In this document: positions 29,312-41,769 of the stretch, piece by piece
Layout: each line of letters starts with the position of its first letter
Position numbering within the stretch: position 1 is the stretch's first letter
Assembly: GCF_024345475.1 (NCBI RefSeq)
Contig: NZ_JAGQBE010000016.1
Location: 1 to 41,824 of the forward strand
Length of the DNA: 41,824 nt
Direction of reading: 5' to 3'
From: Cyanobium sp. T1B-Tous
GTDB taxonomy: Bacteria > Cyanobacteriota > Cyanobacteriia > PCC-6307 > Cyanobiaceae
Translations under genes and position numbers: made by a program
Notes under the pieces: generated by a model
What the model was told of the DNA's origin: nothing
Database searches by the model: none
What the model saw: the letters and a program-made list of their open reading frames with translations, nothing else

Positions 29312-29350
29312 CGGCTCCCATCATCCGTCCAACGGCGATACGCTCCGGCG

Positions 29351-30499
29351 ATGGTGCTGGATCGTTGCTGGATGTCGGCGCTGCAGGGGTCCAGGAGGTT
29401 GGCGCTGGCGACGGCCCTGATGGCGGCCCTGGTGCCCGCCGCTCTGGTGCTGGGCTGCGGCCCGGTGCGGGAGCCGGCCCGGCGCTTGCCCTTGGTGCAG
29501 ACCCAGCCCATCGAGCCGGCAGGGTTTCAGGCTGGCTTTGACACGGTGAGCACCCTGGAGGCGGAGGAGGAGGTGGATCTGGCGGCCCAGGCCGGCGGTC
29601 GGATCCAGCGTCTGCTGGTGCGTCAGGGCGATCGGGTGCGCCAGGGCCAGTTGCTGCTCGTGCTCGACCAGACCCAGCTGCGGGCGGAGGTGGCCAGCCT
29701 GCGCGCCCAGATGCAGACCAACCGGCTCAACTACCAGCGCTACCAGGATCTGGCCCGTCAGGGTGCGGCCAGCGCCCTGCAGCGCGATGAATTCCGCCAG
29801 GCCTACATCGCGGCGCGCGAAGCCCTGGTGGCCCGGGAGGCGGACCTGGCCTTCAAGGATCTGCGCGCCCCCATTGCCGGCACGGTGGCTGATCTGCGCG
29901 TCAAGCAGGGCGATGTGATCGAGGCGGGGGTGCCGCTCACCCGTTTGATCCGCAACGACCGCTTGCTGGCCCGCATCGACGTTCCGGCGGTGTACGCCGG
30001 TCGGGTGCGACCCGGCCAGCGGGTGCTCCTGCTCGACGCCTCCCGCGCCCAGCCGTTGGCGGAGGGGCAGGTGAGCACGGTGGATCCGGGGGTGGCAGCC
30101 GCCACCCAGACCCTGCTCGTGAAGGCCGCGTTTGCCAATCCCCGCGGCAGCCTGCGCAACGGTCAGCGCAGCCGCACCCGCCTGGTGCTGGACCGGCGGG
30201 AGGAGCTGGCGGTGCCGTTCACCGCGGTGACCCAGCTGGCGGGCCAGTCGTTTGTCTACGTGGTGGGCAGCCTGGCCGATCTGGAACGGCGGCCGGGACA
30301 GGCCGCCCTGGCCGAGCTGCGCAAGCTGCCGGCGGGCACCCGCTTTGCCCTGCAGACGCCGGTGCAGTTGGGGGATCTGCAGGGCAACCGCTACCCGGTG
30401 CGGCGGGGCCTGGCGGCGGGGGACCTTGTGATCACCGCTGGCCTGCTCAATCTGCGCCACGGGGCACCGTTGCAGCTGGCCCAGCAGGCCCGCCCCTGA
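29351..30499 (+). CDS. RND efflux periplasmic adaptor lipoprotein, first copy
   Basis: The 382-residue HlyD/AcrA-type membrane fusion protein starts at ATG 29351 (ATG 29372 is also possible). A lipobox AALVLGC puts the lipid-anchored cysteine at residue 36. Then follow the beta-barrel/lipoyl half QAGGRIQRLLVRQGDRVRQG, a helical hairpin (about 120-160), the second lipoyl half DLRAPIAGTVADLRVKQGD and the C-terminal barrel domain. It links an inner-membrane RND pump to an outer-membrane channel. It is followed by a second adaptor and the pump. It is more diverged than the second copy and begins 39 bases from the divergent rarA start. Confidence 0.9.
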   Translation: MVLDRCWMSALQGSRRLALATALMAALVPAALVLGCGPVREPARRLPLVQTQPIEPAGFQAGFDTVSTLEAEEEVDLAAQAGGRIQRLLVRQGDRVRQGQLLLVLDQTQLRAEVASLRAQMQTNRLNYQRYQDLARQGAASALQRDEFRQAYIAAREALVAREADLAFKDLRAPIAGTVADLRVKQGDVIEAGVPLTRLIRNDRLLARIDVPAVYAGRVRPGQRVLLLDASRAQPLAEGQVSTVDPGVAAATQTLLVKAAFANPRGSLRNGQRSRTRLVLDRREELAVPFTAVTQLAGQSFVYVVGSLADLERRPGQAALAELRKLPAGTRFALQTPVQLGDLQGNRYPVRRGLAAGDLVITAGLLNLRHGAPLQLAQQARP

Positions 30500-30551
30500 G
30501 GTGGGCAAGGGGCAGCGATGCCTCTAATTTGCCTGCACATGCCCAGGGATT

Positions 30552-31697: not shown

Positions 31698-34600
31698 ATG
31701 TCGCTCTCCGATAATTTCATCAAACGGCCGGTTCTGACCACCGTTTGCAGCATCTTGATCGTGCTGATAGGCATCATCGCGATCCCAAGCCTGTCGATTG
31801 AGAACCTCCCCAACATCGCGCCACCTCTGATTCAGGTGACGGCCAACTACGGCGGCGCCAATTCCGTGGTGACCGAGCAGGCGGTGACCAATCCGCTCGA
31901 GCAGCAGATCAACGGTGTGCCGGGTGCGGCCTATATCTCTTCCACGAGCTCAAACACGGGACAGAGCATTATTCAAGTTTATTTCAACGAAGACACGGAT
32001 ATCAACATCGACCAGGTGAACGTGCAGAACCGCGTGTCCCTGGCCATGCCCCAGTTGCCACAGCAGGTTTCGGCCACCGGTGTGTCGGTGATGCAGAGCA
32101 CGCCCTCGATCCTGATGGCCTATCAGGTGACTTCAACCGAGGGACAGTTTGATGCGCCTTACATCAATGGCCTCATCTATGAGCAGCTCTTTTACGAGTT
32201 GGAACGGGTTCCCGGCGTTGCTCAGGTGAACATGTTGGGGGGTAGCAACCCGGCCTTCTGGTTGTTCGTCGACCCCAACAAGCTCACGGCCAACCAGCTC
32301 ACGGCCGATCAGATCGTTAATGCTGTCAAGAGTCAGAACAGCGTTGCCATTGGCGGATTGATTGGTGGCCCGCCCGCCGGAGGAGACCAGCTGTTCGCCT
32401 ACCCGATTCTGGTGGCTGACAACGGCAACCTGATGTCGATTGAGCAGCTCAACGATCTGATCGTGGGCAAGTCCCCCCAGGGCAACCTGCTGCGGCTTCG
32501 GGATGTGGGTCAGGCCACCTATGGCTTCAACACCTTTGCCCAGCAGGCCGTCAGCGTTGAGGGCTACCCGGCGATCACCGTGGCGGTGTTCCAGACCCCG
32601 GAGAGCAACGCGCTGGATGTGTCGGAAGCGGTGGTGGCGGTGATGGACCAGTTCTCCCAGACCGTGCCTGCGGGGATCTCGGTGAAGCAGATCTACAACA
32701 TCGGCCAGTTCATTGAGTCGGCCGTGGACGGCGTGACCGATGCCCTGGGCCTGGCGATCGTGCTGGTGCTGGTGATCCTGTTCCTGTTTCTGCAGAACTG
32801 GCGCGCCACGGTGGTTCCCAGCCTGGCGATTCCGATCTCCCTGATTGGCACCTTCGCCTTTATCAAGGCGTTTGGCTTCTCGATCAACCAGCTCACCCTG
32901 CTGGGGTTGGTGCTCGCCACCGGCCTGGTGGTGGATGACGCCATCGTGGTGATCGAAGCCGTCTCCAAGAACCTCGAAAGCGGCATGAGCCCCCGCAAGG
33001 CGGCGATGGAGTGCATGGGCACCCTGATCGGGGCGTTGATTGCCACCTCCTTGGTGTTGATGGCGGTGTTCGTGCCGGTGGCGTTCTATCCGGGCGGCAT
33101 CGGCATTATTTATAAGCAATTTGCGCTCACGATCGCCTTCTCGATCGCCATCTCCACCTTCAACGCCCTCACCTTCTCGCCGATGATGTCGGCCCTGATC
33201 CTGAAGGCGGAGCAGCCCCAGAAGCCGAAGGGTTGGGGTTGGACGATCGGGGGCGTGGTGGTGGGTCTGGCGTTCGGTCGCTTCAGCGCGGCTTCCTTTG
33301 GCGTCGGTGCCTATGTGTTTGGTGTGGTGCTGTTCGGCCTTGCCGGCAGCAGACTCGCCCTCATTTTTGAGCGTTTCAACCGCTTTTTTGCCTGGCTCCA
33401 AGATCGTTACGCCCGTCTGCTGGAGGTGTTAATCCGCAAGCGCAAGCTGGTGTTCGCCGGTCTGGCCGGTGGCATCGTGCTCACCGCCCTGGCGTTCTCT
33501 GCCCTGCCTTCAGCGTTCATTCCGGAGGAAGACCAGGGCTACGGCGTGGGGATCTTCCAGTTGCAGAACGGTGCCTCCCTCACCCTCACACAGCAGACCG
33601 GCCTGGAGATCGCCAAGGTGCTCAAGGAAGAGCCCGACATCACGGCGGCTTCGGTGGTGAGTGGCTACGGCTTCAACGGCTCCAGCCCCGATCAGGGTGT
33701 GTTTTTCTTTGGACTGAAGCCCCTGGAGGAGCGCAGCGGAGCCGATCAGAAAGCCCCCGCCATCGTGGCGCGGCTCAACGCCAAGCTCTCCAAGATCAGC
33801 AGTGGCCTGGTGGTGGCCGCCCAGCCCCCGGCGATTCCGGGCTTCTCGGCCCAGGGGGGCTTCTACTTCCAGTTCAACGACCTCAGCAACGGCGCCTACA
33901 CCTTCAACCAGCTCGATCGTCTGGCCCAGGAGCTGGTGGCCGCCGGCACCAGCTCGGATCAGTTTTCCAGCCTTTACACCCAGTTCATTCCCAGCGCGCC
34001 GGCTTTTGGGCTGACGATTGATCGCTCGATCATGGGTACCCTCAACATCGACTTCCAGCAGGCGATGCAGACGATCGCCGTGCTCGCTGGTGGCAACTAT
34101 TCCGGACTCACCTATGAGAACGGCCAGGTGCGCAACATCTATGTGCAGTCTGAGGCGTCTGGGCGCAGCAATCTGGAGGATGTACTCAGCTATTACGTGC
34201 GCAACCGCGACAACAAGCTGGTGCAGGTGAGCGAGTTTGCCTCGTCGGAGCTCACCAGTGCGCCGCCGGTGATCAGTCACTACAACCTGTACCGCACCAT
34301 TCTGGTGCAGGGCGCTGAAGCCATCGGCAAGAGCTCGGGACAGGCCCTCACGGCCATTCAGCAGATCTTCCAGAAGCTGGATTTCAACAACGTCGGGTAT
34401 GCCTTTACGGGCCTGGCGTCGTTGCAGCTGTCGGCTGGTAGCGCCAGCGTTCTGGTGTTCGGCCTGGGCATCCTGATCGTCTACCTGGTGCTCTCTGCCC
34501 AGTACGAGAGCTATGTCACCCCCGTCATCATCCTGATGACCGTGCCGCTGGCCATGCTGGGGGCCCTGGTGTTTCTGGCCTTGCGCTCGATCGACCTCAA

Positions 34601-34967
34601 CATCTATGCCCAGGTGGGGCTGGTGACCTTGATCGGCCTGGCGGCCAAGAACGGCATCCTGATTGTGGAGGTGGCCGAACAGCATTTGGAGGAGGGCATG
34701 GGCGTCGTCGAGGCGGCCATGGCCGCTGCCGAATCCCGCATGCGCCCGATCCTGATGACCGCGATCGCCTCGCTGGCTGGCTTCCTGCCCCTGGTGGTGG
34801 CCACCACCGCCGGTGCCAACAGCCAGCAGTCGCTGGGCACGGTGATCTTCGGCGGTCTGCTCGTGGCCACGGTGCTGTCGCTGGGCGTGGTGCCCCCCTT
34901 CTATGTGCTGATCAAGCAGCTGGAGGCGCGTTGGTTCCCTGAACCGCAGCAGGAGTCGGTCGGTTGA
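31698..34967 (+). CDS. RND-family inner-membrane efflux pump (AcrB/HAE1 type)
   Basis: The 1,089-residue transporter has the 12-helix RND layout with two large periplasmic loops. The N-terminus SDNFIKRPVLTTVCSILIVL, the GLVLATGLVVDDAIVVIEAV helix with the paired Asp of the proton relay, and GLAAKNGILIVEVAEQHLEE with the matching Lys show a working HAE1-type antiporter. It is slightly longer than AcrB (1,049) because of extra sequence near residue 510, where PKGWGWTIGGVVVGLAFG adds a hydrophobic stretch. GAGGA lies seven bases before the ATG. No TolC-like channel gene is in the window. The substrate is unknown. Confidence 0.95.
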   Translation: MSLSDNFIKRPVLTTVCSILIVLIGIIAIPSLSIENLPNIAPPLIQVTANYGGANSVVTEQAVTNPLEQQINGVPGAAYISSTSSNTGQSIIQVYFNEDTDINIDQVNVQNRVSLAMPQLPQQVSATGVSVMQSTPSILMAYQVTSTEGQFDAPYINGLIYEQLFYELERVPGVAQVNMLGGSNPAFWLFVDPNKLTANQLTADQIVNAVKSQNSVAIGGLIGGPPAGGDQLFAYPILVADNGNLMSIEQLNDLIVGKSPQGNLLRLRDVGQATYGFNTFAQQAVSVEGYPAITVAVFQTPESNALDVSEAVVAVMDQFSQTVPAGISVKQIYNIGQFIESAVDGVTDALGLAIVLVLVILFLFLQNWRATVVPSLAIPISLIGTFAFIKAFGFSINQLTLLGLVLATGLVVDDAIVVIEAVSKNLESGMSPRKAAMECMGTLIGALIATSLVLMAVFVPVAFYPGGIGIIYKQFALTIAFSIAISTFNALTFSPMMSALILKAEQPQKPKGWGWTIGGVVVGLAFGRFSAASFGVGAYVFGVVLFGLAGSRLALIFERFNRFFAWLQDRYARLLEVLIRKRKLVFAGLAGGIVLTALAFSALPSAFIPEEDQGYGVGIFQLQNGASLTLTQQTGLEIAKVLKEEPDITAASVVSGYGFNGSSPDQGVFFFGLKPLEERSGADQKAPAIVARLNAKLSKISSGLVVAAQPPAIPGFSAQGGFYFQFNDLSNGAYTFNQLDRLAQELVAAGTSSDQFSSLYTQFIPSAPAFGLTIDRSIMGTLNIDFQQAMQTIAVLAGGNYSGLTYENGQVRNIYVQSEASGRSNLEDVLSYYVRNRDNKLVQVSEFASSELTSAPPVISHYNLYRTILVQGAEAIGKSSGQALTAIQQIFQKLDFNNVGYAFTGLASLQLSAGSASVLVFGLGILIVYLVLSAQYESYVTPVIILMTVPLAMLGALVFLALRSIDLNIYAQVGLVTLIGLAAKNGILIVEVAEQHLEEGMGVVEAAMAAAESRMRPILMTAIASLAGFLPLVVATTAGANSQQSLGTVIFGGLLVATVLSLGVVPPFYVLIKQLEARWFPEPQQESVG

Positions 34968-35453
34968 TCAGTGTTGCCGGCGGATGTGGCCGTTGTGCCA
35001 GCTCCAGCGCCAGGGCTCCACGGCCCGGGCCGTCTGCAGATCGGGCCGGTCGGCCAGGCACACCGGGATGAACTCGGTGGCGTAGCTGAAGGCGTTGTCG
35101 CGGATGGATTGATTCAGCACCAGGCTGCCCTCCTCGCCTGAAATCGAGCGGTGGTACGTGCCCACCGGAATTTCAAGCGCCCCCATGGCCCGTTCCAGCG
35201 CAATCACGTGGTGGGGCTGATCCCAGGCCGGGTTGAGCAGGATGAAGGTGCGCTGGCCTTGCAGCACCAGGTTGTGATCCACCTGGTGTTGATGCACGTA
35301 GTACTGCTCCGCCCCGTCGTGATCGGGCGGTGAGATGGCAGGCCCGTGGTGCACCACCACATCGGTGCCGTTGCTGTGGGGCACGCTGGCATCGAAGAAG
35401 CACACCTGCGGCGTTTCGCGAAACAGGTGGATCGGTACGAATTGGAGGTGCAT
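34968..35453 (-). CDS. Cupin-like protein
   Basis: The 161-residue protein starts at ATG 35451-35453, preceded by AGGAG. It is histidine-rich in a cupin-like arrangement: VVVHHGPAISPPDHDGAEQY, then YVHQHQVDHNLVLQGQRTFI, and later LEIPVGTYHRSISGEEGSLV. These resemble the two cupin motifs with metal-binding His residues and a sugar-epimerase-like barrel. There is no signal peptide. I cannot name the substrate. It ends one base after the convergent RND gene stop. It follows a secreted protein gene by 53 bases on the same strand. Confidence 0.72.
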   Translation of the reverse strand: MHLQFVPIHLFRETPQVCFFDASVPHSNGTDVVVHHGPAISPPDHDGAEQYYVHQHQVDHNLVLQGQRTFILLNPAWDQPHHVIALERAMGALEIPVGTYHRSISGEEGSLVLNQSIRDNAFSYATEFIPVCLADRPDLQTARAVEPWRWSWHNGHIRRQH

Positions 35454-35506
35454 CGAGCCACTCCTGGCTATGCCCTCTGTCGCCAGGGTGCTGGCCGCTG
35501 CCCCAT

Positions 35507-36283
35507 TCAGGGCATGGGCGCTTCCAGGCGCTGACCGGGCCGGATCGCCGTGGGCGGTGAGGGGTGGCGCCGGGTTGGTTCCCAGATCCGCACCTGCAGC
35601 GGTCCCTGTGTCTTCGGCTCGAAGCGGGTGAGCCAGCCCGAGCTCCAGGTGATCTCCACCTCGCCGTTGTCCAGCCGCCAGGTGCCCCCAGCCAGCGCAT
35701 CGATGGCGTTGAAGGCCAGGCCGTTCGACATCAGGCTCACGGTGGTCACGGGCTGATCGGCCTGGGCCGGCTGGATCCGGTAGACCCCCACCGCGGCGGC
35801 CACGGCTCCGCTCAGCTGCACGGCCTTGCCGACGTTGCTCGGCGGGTCGAGGCGGCTCGCCCCCGGCGCCCACGACCACTGCTCCGGCCCGGCCGGGCCG
35901 GTGAGGATTGCATCGCTCCAGCCATCGCTGTAGTCGATGCGCACGCCGTTGCCCCAGGGGGCCCAGCGCCCCTGCTCGTAGAGCTGGTTGGCGCCCAGGT
36001 GGCTGCTGCCGCCCACGGGCACCCCATTGGTGCCCGTGGTGCTGATGGCCTGGCCATCGGCGCTGAGGCGCACGTTGAAGAGGTTGTTGGCGTTGTCTAC
36101 CAGGGCCCAGACGCCTGTGTAGCGCTGGCGCTGCTGCTGCTCTTCGGCGGCGAAGGTGCGATGGGCTGGCGGTTCTGCGGCCCGTAAGGCCCCAGGAGCT
36201 GGGGCTGCGAGCAGGAGCAGGAGGGGCAGATGCCGCAACCGGTACGGCATGGCTCGCATGGTCAGTGTTGGCTGGGGGGTCAT
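35507..36283 (-). CDS. Secreted protein of unknown function with internal duplication
   Basis: About 258 residues; its ATG overlaps the stop of the upstream lectin-like gene (ATGA), so translation is probably coupled. A signal peptide (RHLPLLLLLAAPAPGALRA) is followed by two related halves. The first has YTGVWALVDNANNLFNVRLS, then GRWAPWGNGVRIDYSDGW. The second has GVYRI, then GTWRLDNGEVEITWSSGW. The shared pattern G-x-W-x(5)-G-x-V-x-I-x-(Y/W)-S-x-GW suggests two small beta-sheet modules. There are no cysteines and no known family. ATGs at residues 9 and 12 could also serve as start. Confidence 0.75.
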   Translation of the reverse strand: MTPQPTLTMRAMPYRLRHLPLLLLLAAPAPGALRAAEPPAHRTFAAEEQQQRQRYTGVWALVDNANNLFNVRLSADGQAISTTGTNGVPVGGSSHLGANQLYEQGRWAPWGNGVRIDYSDGWSDAILTGPAGPEQWSWAPGASRLDPPSNVGKAVQLSGAVAAAVGVYRIQPAQADQPVTTVSLMSNGLAFNAIDALAGGTWRLDNGEVEITWSSGWLTRFEPKTQGPLQVRIWEPTRRHPSPPTAIRPGQRLEAPMP

Positions 36284-36846
36284 GGCGCCGGCTTTCGATC
36301 GAACTCGACGATGTAAGCCACGGGACGCTGGGCGCGCACCACGCTCAATTGGGTCGGATCGTTGGCGAAGTCGTTCCAGGTGGCTGGGTCGTTGGAGCCG
36401 GCCACGCGGAAGAGGTGGCCGTAATCCTCGATCTGCTCGAGGTTGTTCGGCTTGCCCGCCGCCCAGTTGGCGTAGGCCAAGGGCTCACCACTGATCCACT
36501 GCCAGCCGCCCTTGGGTTCCTGCGCCTGGTGGCGAATCTGCACCAGGCCGATCCAGGGGCCGACGGCGTCGGCCTGGCCCTGGCGGAGGCTGGTGGTCCA
36601 GACGCGGGGTTGCTTGGCGATCAACGACCAGACGAACCGGTTTTCTTCGGCCGAGGTGAGCGTGGCCAGGTAGCCCCCGCGGGCGCTGGCCGCCGCCTTG
36701 GCCTCGAGCCAGGTGATGCCCTCGGGCACCACCACCACCTCATAAAGATGGCCGTTGCCACTCCAGCGCACCGGCTCCGCCTGGGTCGGGGCGGCCAGCA
36801 GGGCCGTTGCCCCCAGGAGCATGAGTTTGACCACTGTCTGACGCAT
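36280..36846 (-). CDS. Secreted C-type-lectin-like domain protein
   Basis: The 188-residue protein has a signal peptide of about 23 residues (LMLLGATALLAAPTQA) followed by one C-type-lectin-like domain. Family features seen: GHLYEVVVVPEGITWLEAKA (first strand and helix), GGYLATLTSAEENRFVWSLI, WIGLVQI, GWQWISGEPLAYANWAAGKP (with the WxW and NWxxGxPN parts) and TWNDF near the end. The cysteines that normally brace the domain are absent; the protein has none. Such domains often bind surfaces or ligands without calcium. It is the first gene of a leftward pair with the duplicated secreted protein, and divergent from an MFS transporter. Confidence 0.86.
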   Translation of the reverse strand: MRQTVVKLMLLGATALLAAPTQAEPVRWSGNGHLYEVVVVPEGITWLEAKAAASARGGYLATLTSAEENRFVWSLIAKQPRVWTTSLRQGQADAVGPWIGLVQIRHQAQEPKGGWQWISGEPLAYANWAAGKPNNLEQIEDYGHLFRVAGSNDPATWNDFANDPTQLSVVRAQRPVAYIVEFDRKPAP

Positions 36847-36921
36847 GATTGCCTCATCCGTTGATCTGCCGACGTCTTAGCAAGCCTGAATCGCCCTGTC
36901 AGCTGGGCGACACTGGGTGCC

Positions 36922-38175
36922 ATGGCTCCCCTGATCCCGCGCAGCACCCTGGCCGGAGCGATCGGCAACACGGTGGAGTGGTTCGACTTCGCCGTCTACG
37001 GCTACTTCGCCAAGGAGATCGGCGAGGCCTTCTTCCCGGCGGACGTGCCGTCGCTGCAGCTGCTGAGCGCCTTCGCGGTGTTTGCGGTGGGCTATCTGAT
37101 GCGGCCGGTGGGCGGGTTGCTGCTGGGGCCGATCGGCGATCTGGTGGGCCGGCGGGCGCTGCTGCTGGTGAGCGTGGCGGTGATGGCGGCCTGCAGCCTG
37201 GGCATTGCCCTGTTACCGCCCACCAGCGCGTGGGGGAGCAGCTCCGCCGTGCTGCTGGTGCTGTTGCGCCTGCTGCAGGGCCTCTCGGTGGGCGGTGAGT
37301 TCACCGGCTCAGTGGTGGCCCTGGTGGAGGCGGCTCCACCGCAGCGGCGCGGCCTTACCGCCAGCTTCGCCAGCGCCGGGGCCGTGCTGGGTTTTGTGGG
37401 GGGATCCTTGGCGGCGGCACTGATCCATCTCTGGTTGACTCCACCAGCTGTGATGCAGTGGGGCTGGCGAATTCCCTTCGTGGTGGGCGCCGCCCTGGGG
37501 ATCTGGGCCCTGAGCCTGCGCACCCACCTTGAGGAGACGCGGCTGGAGGCGCCGTCTGCCGGTCTGGCGGCCCACCTGGCGGAGCTGCGCGCCCAGCTTC
37601 CGGCGATGCTGCGGCTGATGGCGGCGGTGGCCCTATCGGCGGTGAGCTTCTATGCCGCCACAGTGTTTGCCGTGCAGGAGGTGTCGGCGCGGCTGCCGGC
37701 GCTGGCCGCCAGTTTCAATGCGATCACCACGCTCAACCAGGCGATCGGCGTGGGGTTGATCCTGCTGGGCGGTCATCTGGCCGATCGCGGTGCAGCGGTG
37801 GCGCTGGCGCGGCGCCTGAACCTGGTGCTGGCCGTGGGCGTGCTGCCAGGGATGCTGCTGATCGCTGCGGGCACCCCGCTGGCCTTTGCTGTGGGCCAGT
37901 TGATCGTGCTCGTGCCGCTGATGCTCTATCTGGGCGTCTATCCCTCGCTGTTGCCGGGCCTGTTTCCGGCCGCGCAGCGCTGCAGCGCCTTCTCCTTCTC
38001 CTACAGCCTGGTGGTGGCGCTTGTCGGCGGCACGCTGCCACTGGTCGCCACCTGGCTGGAGGCGAGCCTGGGGCTGACGCAAGGGCCGGCGCTGTATTGC
38101 CTGATCTGGGCGGTGCCCTCTCTGCTGGCCTACAGCCAGCTGGAGCGGCATCTGTTGCCGGACTGGCGGGCCTGA
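36922..38175 (+). CDS. MFS transporter, metabolite:H+ symporter (MHS) type
   Basis: The 417-residue protein has twelve hydrophobic segments. The N-terminus reads GAIGNTVEWFDFAVYGYFAK, typical of the MHS group (ProP, KgtP, CitA), followed by FAVGYLMRPVGGLLLGPIGD and the loop GDLVGRRALLL. LRLLQGLSVGGEFTGSVV is another MHS signature. Such proteins take up osmolytes or organic acids with protons. The substrate cannot be told from sequence. It is divergent from the lectin-like gene and convergent with a small secreted protein gene, four bases between stops. Confidence 0.9.
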   Translation: MAPLIPRSTLAGAIGNTVEWFDFAVYGYFAKEIGEAFFPADVPSLQLLSAFAVFAVGYLMRPVGGLLLGPIGDLVGRRALLLVSVAVMAACSLGIALLPPTSAWGSSSAVLLVLLRLLQGLSVGGEFTGSVVALVEAAPPQRRGLTASFASAGAVLGFVGGSLAAALIHLWLTPPAVMQWGWRIPFVVGAALGIWALSLRTHLEETRLEAPSAGLAAHLAELRAQLPAMLRLMAAVALSAVSFYAATVFAVQEVSARLPALAASFNAITTLNQAIGVGLILLGGHLADRGAAVALARRLNLVLAVGVLPGMLLIAAGTPLAFAVGQLIVLVPLMLYLGVYPSLLPGLFPAAQRCSAFSFSYSLVVALVGGTLPLVATWLEASLGLTQGPALYCLIWAVPSLLAYSQLERHLLPDWRA

Positions 38176-38179
38176 GCCC

Positions 38180-38605
38180 TCACGGCGCCACTCGCACCTC
38201 CGACCCGGAGAGGGCCGTGGTCTGGCCTCCCGGCGCCGCCGTGATTGTGTAGACGAAGCGGCTGCCGTCCGGGCTGACGAAGCTGGTCGCCTTCTGGCCG
38301 TCCGGGTAGGTGGCCATGGCGATGCAGTCGGCGCTGACGCTGTAGGTGGCCTTTTCGACACCACCGGAGCCATCGGAGCCGCGATAGCTCAGCACGATGC
38401 CGCCCTGGCCGTCGTACACCTCGCGGCCGCTCTCGGCGTAGGGCTTGCCGTTGAGCACGCCGCTTTCGCTGTAGAGGTAGGTGCCCTTGAGGGTGGCGTT
38501 GCTGCAGGGCAGCGGGGTGGCTGATGCGGCGCTGCCGGCGGCCATGGCCAGCACGATCAGGGGGAGCCGGGCGATCCGGCCGGGAAGGGGCAGTCGGGCG
38601 GGCAT
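38180..38605 (-). CDS. Small secreted protein of unknown function
   Basis: The 141-residue protein has a signal peptide (residues about 12-29, ending SAASA). The mature part has TPLPCSNATLKGTYLYSESG, REVYDGQGGIVLSYRGSDGS and GGVEKATYSVSADCIAMATY. Its two cysteines are spaced to form one disulfide in a mostly beta-strand protein. The pattern (C-x-NATLKGTY...G...G.G....Y....G......G.Y.v..dC) resembles small extracellular bacterial proteins of unknown role. I do not name a family. It lies next to the DUF4239 gene on the same strand, 27 bases between them. Confidence 0.75.
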   Translation of the reverse strand: MPARLPLPGRIARLPLIVLAMAAGSAASATPLPCSNATLKGTYLYSESGVLNGKPYAESGREVYDGQGGIVLSYRGSDGSGGVEKATYSVSADCIAMATYPDGQKATSFVSPDGSRFVYTITAAPGGQTTALSGSEVRVAP

Positions 38606-41167: not shown

Positions 41168-41557
41168 TCACGCCAGCGTCCTCACCCCCTCGAACTGCGC
41201 GAAGGCCGGATCCGTGCTCGCCAGCACCAGATCGTCTGAGCTGGCCTGGGCGGCCAGCAGGCGATCGAAGGGATCCCGGTGGGGTACCTGCCAGAGGCCG
41301 GCCTGGCGGGCCACGGCACCGCTGATCGGCAGTTCAACCGCCGCCAGACGATGCAGGGCCATGGCGTAGTTCTCGACGACGGCCCTGGCGTGTGGCAGCT
41401 TGCCGAGCCTCCACTTGGTGGCGATCTCCCAGGCGGAGGCCGCGCTGACCATCAGGGTGTTGTCGCTGTTCTCCAGGGCGTTGCGCAAGCTGGGCGAGAG
41501 CTTTTGAGGTTCCAGCAGAGCCCAGAGCAGCACATGGGTGTCGAGCAGCAGCTGCAT
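41168..41557 (-). CDS. VapC-type PIN-domain toxin
   Basis: The 129-residue PIN-domain protein has acidic residues in the expected places: Asp6 in LLLDTHVLLWAL, Glu44 in SAWEIATKWRLGKL and Asp95/Asp98 in HRDPFDRLLAAQA. A later LASTDPAF completes the site. PIN toxins are magnesium-dependent ribonucleases held inactive by their antitoxin. The LDTHVLLW...RDPFDRLL type is the common Phd-partnered group. Its ATG overlaps the antitoxin stop by one base (TGATG), so the two are translated together. Confidence 0.93.
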   Translation of the reverse strand: MQLLLDTHVLLWALLEPQKLSPSLRNALENSDNTLMVSAASAWEIATKWRLGKLPHARAVVENYAMALHRLAAVELPISGAVARQAGLWQVPHRDPFDRLLAAQASSDDLVLASTDPAFAQFEGVRTLA

Positions 41558-41769
41558 CAGCCCCAGCGCTCGAGCTCGTCGTCGGGCAGGGGCTCGAAGA
41601 ACGCCTCATCCACACGGCCCTGCAGGAAGCCGAGCTGGCGGCGCGGGCTGGGGTCAAGCGGCACCAACTGGGCGATCGGCTTGCCATGGCGGGACAGCAC
41701 GATGCGCTCGCCGGCTGCAACCCTGGCCAACAGGGCCGAGAGGTGCGTCTTGGCCTCCTGAACATTCAC
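41557..41769 (-). CDS. Phd/YefM-type antitoxin (possibly extending past the stated start)
   Basis: About 70 residues from GTG 41769. The N-terminus NVQEAKTHLSALLARVAAGE then RIVLSRHGKPIAQLVPLD is the Phd/YefM DNA-binding fold. The C-terminus FLQGRVDEAFFEPLPDDELE is the flexible toxin-binding part. Most homologues have several residues before the first NV(Q/R)EAK. The frame stays open to the window edge without an ATG, so the true start may be a rarer codon or lie outside. It pairs with the downstream PIN toxin and probably represses their shared promoter. Confidence 0.88.
   Translation of the reverse strand: MNVQEAKTHLSALLARVAAGERIVLSRHGKPIAQLVPLDPSPRRQLGFLQGRVDEAFFEPLPDDELERWG

Follow-up and report, generated by a model that had tools for sequence, protein, structure and literature searches.

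With a probability of about 0.68, the three leftward genes at positions 34968-36846 of the window (the whole 41,824-nt stretch of Cyanobium sp. T1B-Tous DNA analysed here; source genome of 122 contigs, 2.71 Mb) are an arrangement specific to one Cyanobium-type lineage, placed at a variable spot that reaches from an RND pump gene to a small conserved gene, and not a conserved system. They encode a C-type-lectin-like protein, a protein with two beta modules (protein B) and a cupin-like protein. The initial annotation had treated them as one set, to be looked for in the same order in other cyanobacteria. That expectation largely failed: our main hypothesis of a conserved trio was rejected, since in the loci surveyed lectin, B and cupin genes stand together only in the window and in its sister Cyanobium sp. 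FACHB-13342 (G014, locus L069), the closest relative with the same locus.

We surveyed the loci of B and of the cupin by tblastn (E ≤ 1e-3). Of the 27 B loci surveyed outside the window, a single one, that of the sister, also holds lectin and cupin; four B loci (L033, L075, L079 and L094) span just 2.4 to 4.9 kb and cover the neighbourhood only partly. Neither lectin nor B was found in any of 41 cupin locus records, which represent 31 distinct places and mostly carry flanks of no more than 1.5 kb. Gene adjacency was rechecked with tblastn because our custom gene caller fails on A+T-rich loci (it was unreliable at L107, L108 and partly at L101, and is probably wrong at 29321-30508 of the window). 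Two observations count against the preferred reading. The sister keeps the order of the trio, with all three genes conserved, and every genus member with this type of lectin (G000, G014 and G004, the last with a broken copy) has a whole or broken cupin gene of the window's type. A search of viral contigs for B and for the cupin confirmed no relative.

The trio is flanked by a convergent and a divergent transporter gene. On the convergent side an RND efflux pump inner-membrane protein is encoded at 31698-34967 on the forward strand (Pfam ACR_tran, E 3.4e-284); its stop codon abuts that of the cupin gene, and by synteny it is the flank common to the sister locus and to the loci of two other genus members, L165 (G004) and L166 (G015). 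The divergent gene, at 36922-38175 on the forward strand, encodes an MFS transporter (Pfam MFS_1/Sugar_tr), of which a close copy (91%) was seen among 16 genus genomes only in the sister, the others reaching at most 51%. Beyond it, at 38180-38605 on the reverse strand, a small uncharacterised gene forms the outer boundary of the variable spot, as seen in L165 and L166. Its protein is 91, 89 and 93% identical to its counterparts in L069, L165 and L166, respectively (tblastn), has by eye a hydrophobic N-terminus and gave no Pfam match above cut-off. Further along the window, at 41168-41769, two overlapping small genes resemble by eye a VapC (PIN) toxin and its antitoxin.

It is the comparison with L165 and L166 that characterizes the spot as variable. 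In both loci the RND gene is followed by a cupin remnant (L165:8844-9136 and L166:2622-2729), a gene for a permease-like protein of 308 aa and the small gene of 38180-38605; lectin, B and the MFS gene were not found at this spot in either locus. The G004 remnant lacks the 5' end of the cupin gene and about 100 inner bases, and 47 bases at the same spot still match the MFS gene (85%, E 1.7e-7). The simplest history would place a cupin of this type here, perhaps together with the MFS gene, before the species diverged, with a replacement then taking out the middle. Lectin and B may or may not have belonged to the sequence removed in G004 and G015.

The arrangement of the trio is as the initial annotation had described it, three leftward genes of which the first two overlap by ATGA. 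The overlap, at 36280-36283 on the reverse strand, joins the stop codon of the lectin gene to the start codon of B, suggests possible translational coupling and is present in the sister locus as well. The stop codon of B is separated from the cupin start by 53 bases. Scans of 34800-37050 gave no sigma-70-type promoter (0.2 expected by chance) and no intrinsic terminator (1.0 expected by chance), results that do not decide whether the genes are co-transcribed. In comparison with the sister, the window genes gave dN 0.012 and dS 0.077 for lectin, 0.050 and 0.202 for B, and 0.020 and 0.199 for the cupin. These values show that all three are real protein-coding genes under constraint; purifying selection acts on each of them.

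The earlier reading of the products themselves, as a cysteine-free secreted C-type-lectin-like protein, a secreted protein with two related beta modules and a cupin, was right, with secretion, probable for the first two, judged for all three proteins from hydrophobicity and by eye only. The first gene (36280-36846, reverse strand) encodes a single-domain protein of 188 aa, which matches Pfam PF00059, Lectin_C, over residues 44-159 (E 6.5e-8; 33.7 bits against a cut-off of 22.6). It carries the core motif WISGEPL..NWAAGKPNN...EDY...WND, shares with the C-type-lectin-like domain (CTLD) proteins of that family the WIGL, NWA, PNN and WND core, and its best PDB match is an animal mannose receptor domain (E 2.6e-10). 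Given its hydrophobic N-terminus, the protein is probably exported. It differs from the family at large in being a small single exported domain, as far as the N-terminus indicates, with KPN where EPN or QPD is expected and without a single cysteine, so that the disulfide cysteines conserved in animal CTLDs are absent. By eye, the aligned regions in other bacterial CTLDs that were compared contain no cysteine either, and membership in the fold therefore stands.

Close relatives of the lectin were found only in G014 (97%) and G004 (66%). Matches at E ≤ 1e-10 occur in 8 of 300 family genomes, the source genome included (this and the other family searches used 300-genome samples of a larger group, always with the source genome among them); beyond the two close relatives they are pieces of 34-44% identity, parts of open frames of at least 848 aa. 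CTLDs of several relatives sit inside much larger open frames. The Pfam model finds a CTLD in 11 of 60 genomes, again counting the source. An in-frame TAG interrupts the G004 relative (L006 / L095:7091-7594), and on the contig about 2 Mb separate it from the cupin remnant of that genome.

In animal CTLDs a Ca ligand is provided by the first residue of the EPN/QPD motif. At this position KPN is found in the window, in the sister and in G004, and the more distant relatives shown have EPN or QPD; Ca-dependent sugar binding by the lectin is therefore in doubt, while the assignment of the fold is unaffected. One could suppose that sugar binding of this kind was lost and that the protein now serves as a structural CTLD or a protein-binding domain. 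We hold this as a tentative reading, compatible with that of a lineage-specific arrangement; the substitution speaks for it; against it, the N within KPN is conserved, as are the E within EDY and the residues of WND.

Protein B (35507-36283, reverse strand) has 258 aa, likewise with no cysteine, and consists of two predicted beta-barrel modules at residues about 55-143 and 158-255. Its hydrophobic N-terminus suggests that it is probably exported; the true start may be later than called, at MPYRL.... The modules are related to each other (hhalign probability 94.9, E 4.5e-8, 45 columns), and an AF2 model built from 24 sequences (mean pLDDT 85.7) predicts two sets of strands forming two barrels. 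Neither Pfam (no family at E 1) nor NCBIfam (no match at E 5) recognizes the protein. We found B in 31 of the 300 family genomes at E ≤ 0.01, the source genome included and some of the matches weak; 29 strong matches (E < 1e-40) in 27 genomes include the window's own, and the other 28 were checked. In a phylum-wide sample it occurs in 7 of 386 genomes, the source counted, all of this same family. In these searches B behaved as a stand-alone family of proteins, seen in a single family of picocyanobacteria. In other genera it occupies differing housekeeping loci, next to trpA and YciI-like neighbours or next to cysS and dxr (by eye).

In the alignment of B (24 rows, the window and 23 relatives; L126, close to L125, is left out), eight of the 23 relatives have by eye a lipobox-like cysteine where the signal peptide ends (L113, L114, L115, L120, L125, L127, L129 and L130). 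These relatives are probably lipoproteins, unlike the cysteine-free copy of the window. The L120 contig, which encodes B at 48% identity, is labelled as a Bifidobacterium breve MAG, a label that is probably wrong.

Comparison of the B model with solved structures returned small all-beta barrels, from which B differs in having two barrels in tandem. The best aligned chains came from module 2 and were the exclusion domain of DPP1 (dipeptidyl peptidase I; Z 8.5, rmsd 3.2, 90 residues) and TP0435 (Z 7.7, rmsd 2.9, 87 residues); module 1 aligned to 5hal (Z 6.8, rmsd 3.3, 91 residues) and to NlpE (Z 5.9, rmsd 3.2, 84 residues); C-terminal domains of GH43 mostly scored Z 6 to 7 and lipocalin-like domains Z 5 to 6. 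The predicted strands would fit a small antiparallel barrel, to which both modules align, with Z up to 8.5, a level common for unrelated models and common arrangements; we therefore claim for B no membership in any barrel family. No credible sequence relation was found to the DPP1, TP0435, GH43, lipocalin-like or NlpE barrels, nor any credible solved relative by sequence. The GH43_C lipocalin-like profile matched one of 24 B members, weakly (E 0.068). BamB, first in the Foldseek list, was rejected as a structural relative with a query TM-score of 0.15, and Foldseek gave no match at E ≤ 0.001. The VIA structure list, considered as a family assignment, was likewise set aside, as it shows common barrel arrangements and no family.

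At the envelope, lectin and B may cooperate. They would be co-translated and exported; the lectin would bind an envelope or extracellular glycan, and B would be a barrel protein of the envelope that binds a small ligand or serves as a scaffold, some of its relatives looking like lipoproteins. Surface-glycan or attachment roles, which the initial annotation had proposed for the whole cluster, are possible for these two proteins. One can go further and take the lectin and B genes alone as the unit, a translationally coupled exported pair for attachment or surface recognition next to which the cupin is a bystander. The ATGA overlap in both the window and the sister argues for such a pair, as do the hydrophobic N-termini and the lack of cysteine in both products. 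Against it, a lectin gene is present at just one of the 27 further B loci, the sister's, and 4-base overlaps occur in 3 of the 23 called same-strand neighbour pairs of the window, the lectin-B pair included, so that this overlap is not rare. We consider the pair conceivable though short of an even chance; it too is compatible with a lineage-specific arrangement.

The third gene (34968-35453, reverse strand) encodes a cupin-like protein of 161 aa, identified from the gene call, family alignments and a weak match to WbuC. Its N-terminus is not strongly hydrophobic and no signal peptide was seen. The sequence contains HxHxxxH and GxxxxPxGTxH, which we take to be the cupin motif pattern, and the name rests on these motifs together with the weak match to the WbuC cupin (E 0.046; 13.6 bits, far under the curated cut-off of 42). 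No Pfam family reaches E 1. Across 11 aligned sequences from two paralogous groups, H54, H56, D59 and H101 do not vary; in an alignment of six rows one (L096) has Y at position 56. A structure model from only two near-identical sequences failed, at pLDDT 31, and no credible solved relative was found by sequence. The source genome has a second cupin paralogue on another contig (L149:1414-1992), for which ARD was a weak match (E 0.26), below the curated cut-off; a match of the second-paralogue kind is present in seven of eight genomes compared. At E ≤ 0.01 the cupin as a whole has a match in 257 of the 300 family genomes, although many of these reach only about 1e-38, the level of the paralogue.

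The recurring partner of this cupin family is OsmC (PF02566), as neighbour or as fusion partner. An OsmC gene lies within the 1.5-kb flanks at 17 of the 28 cupin loci L041-L068, the only loci at which this adjacency was counted and a non-random set, the best-scoring after the window and G014. OsmC and cupin genes are adjacent in Synechococcus sp. RCC307 (G062) and fused into one open frame at L143:1111-2019, L068:1108-2043 and L108:5444-6355; Pfam confirms OsmC in the neighbour at L102 and in the L143 fusion. The source genome differs in that its only OsmC match among those listed (51% identity) is on contig C64, unlinked to the cupin gene. In a quick cupin tree, where 15 of the 37 inner branches are open and L067 and L104 are two records of one gene, all 19 OsmC-linked cupins fall into one clade of 22 rows (SH-aLRT 95), and the cupins of the window and the sister are outside it. 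At a guess, the relatives in which the cupin is linked to OsmC would be marine organisms, or Prochlorococcus. In a literature search OsmC, cupin and Prochlorococcus were not found treated together, and no title or opening of an abstract on OsmC-cupin fusion, or on cyanobacterial OsmC and cupin, was about such a pair.

The cupin of the window would most likely be an independent cytoplasmic metal-binding protein, perhaps with a part in peroxide metabolism because its relatives are tied to OsmC. The position of the window cupin outside the OsmC-linked clade means that the peroxide link may not carry over to it.

The trio could also be one lineage-special operon for modifying or recognizing surface glycans, with lectin and B acting outside and the cupin carrying out a sugar-modifying or regulatory step in the cytoplasm. 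Consistent with it are the lectin-B overlap, the 53-base gap to the cupin and the order kept in the sister, as well as the weak match to WbuC, a name used in surface-polysaccharide loci. The cupin is moreover broken in G004 and G015, two genus members whose spot has neither lectin nor B, as might be expected if the trio cooperates; a single replacement by the permease-like gene explains this equally well. Against such an operon, the loci examined show the trio at one place nowhere beyond one sister, the cupin has no visible signal peptide and occurs commonly in places lacking lectin and B, and its recurring partner is OsmC. We regard a three-gene surface-glycan system as unlikely, and as less likely than an envelope unit of lectin and B. 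It is also improbable that the window joins members of two undescribed picocyanobacterial families into one operon with an extracellular lectin, B being a tandem two-barrel binder of hydrophobic or sugar ligands at the envelope, lipoprotein-like in some relatives, and the metal cupin, paired or fused with OsmC in many relatives and here without an OsmC neighbour (lost or never had), supplying the catalytic or the sensing half of a system for organic peroxides.

Under the preferred reading of a lineage-specific arrangement, the trio matters little as a cluster, as it is not a conserved system. The lectin belongs to a known kind, the family of B is uncharacterised and the cupin family is common in picocyanobacteria. 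The analysis leaves two testable by-products. The family of B, two-barrel proteins that are probably exported and have no Pfam match, was seen here in just one picocyanobacterial family. The cupin family, widespread in these picocyanobacteria, often adjoins OsmC or is fused with it, which suggests a peroxide-handling pair.
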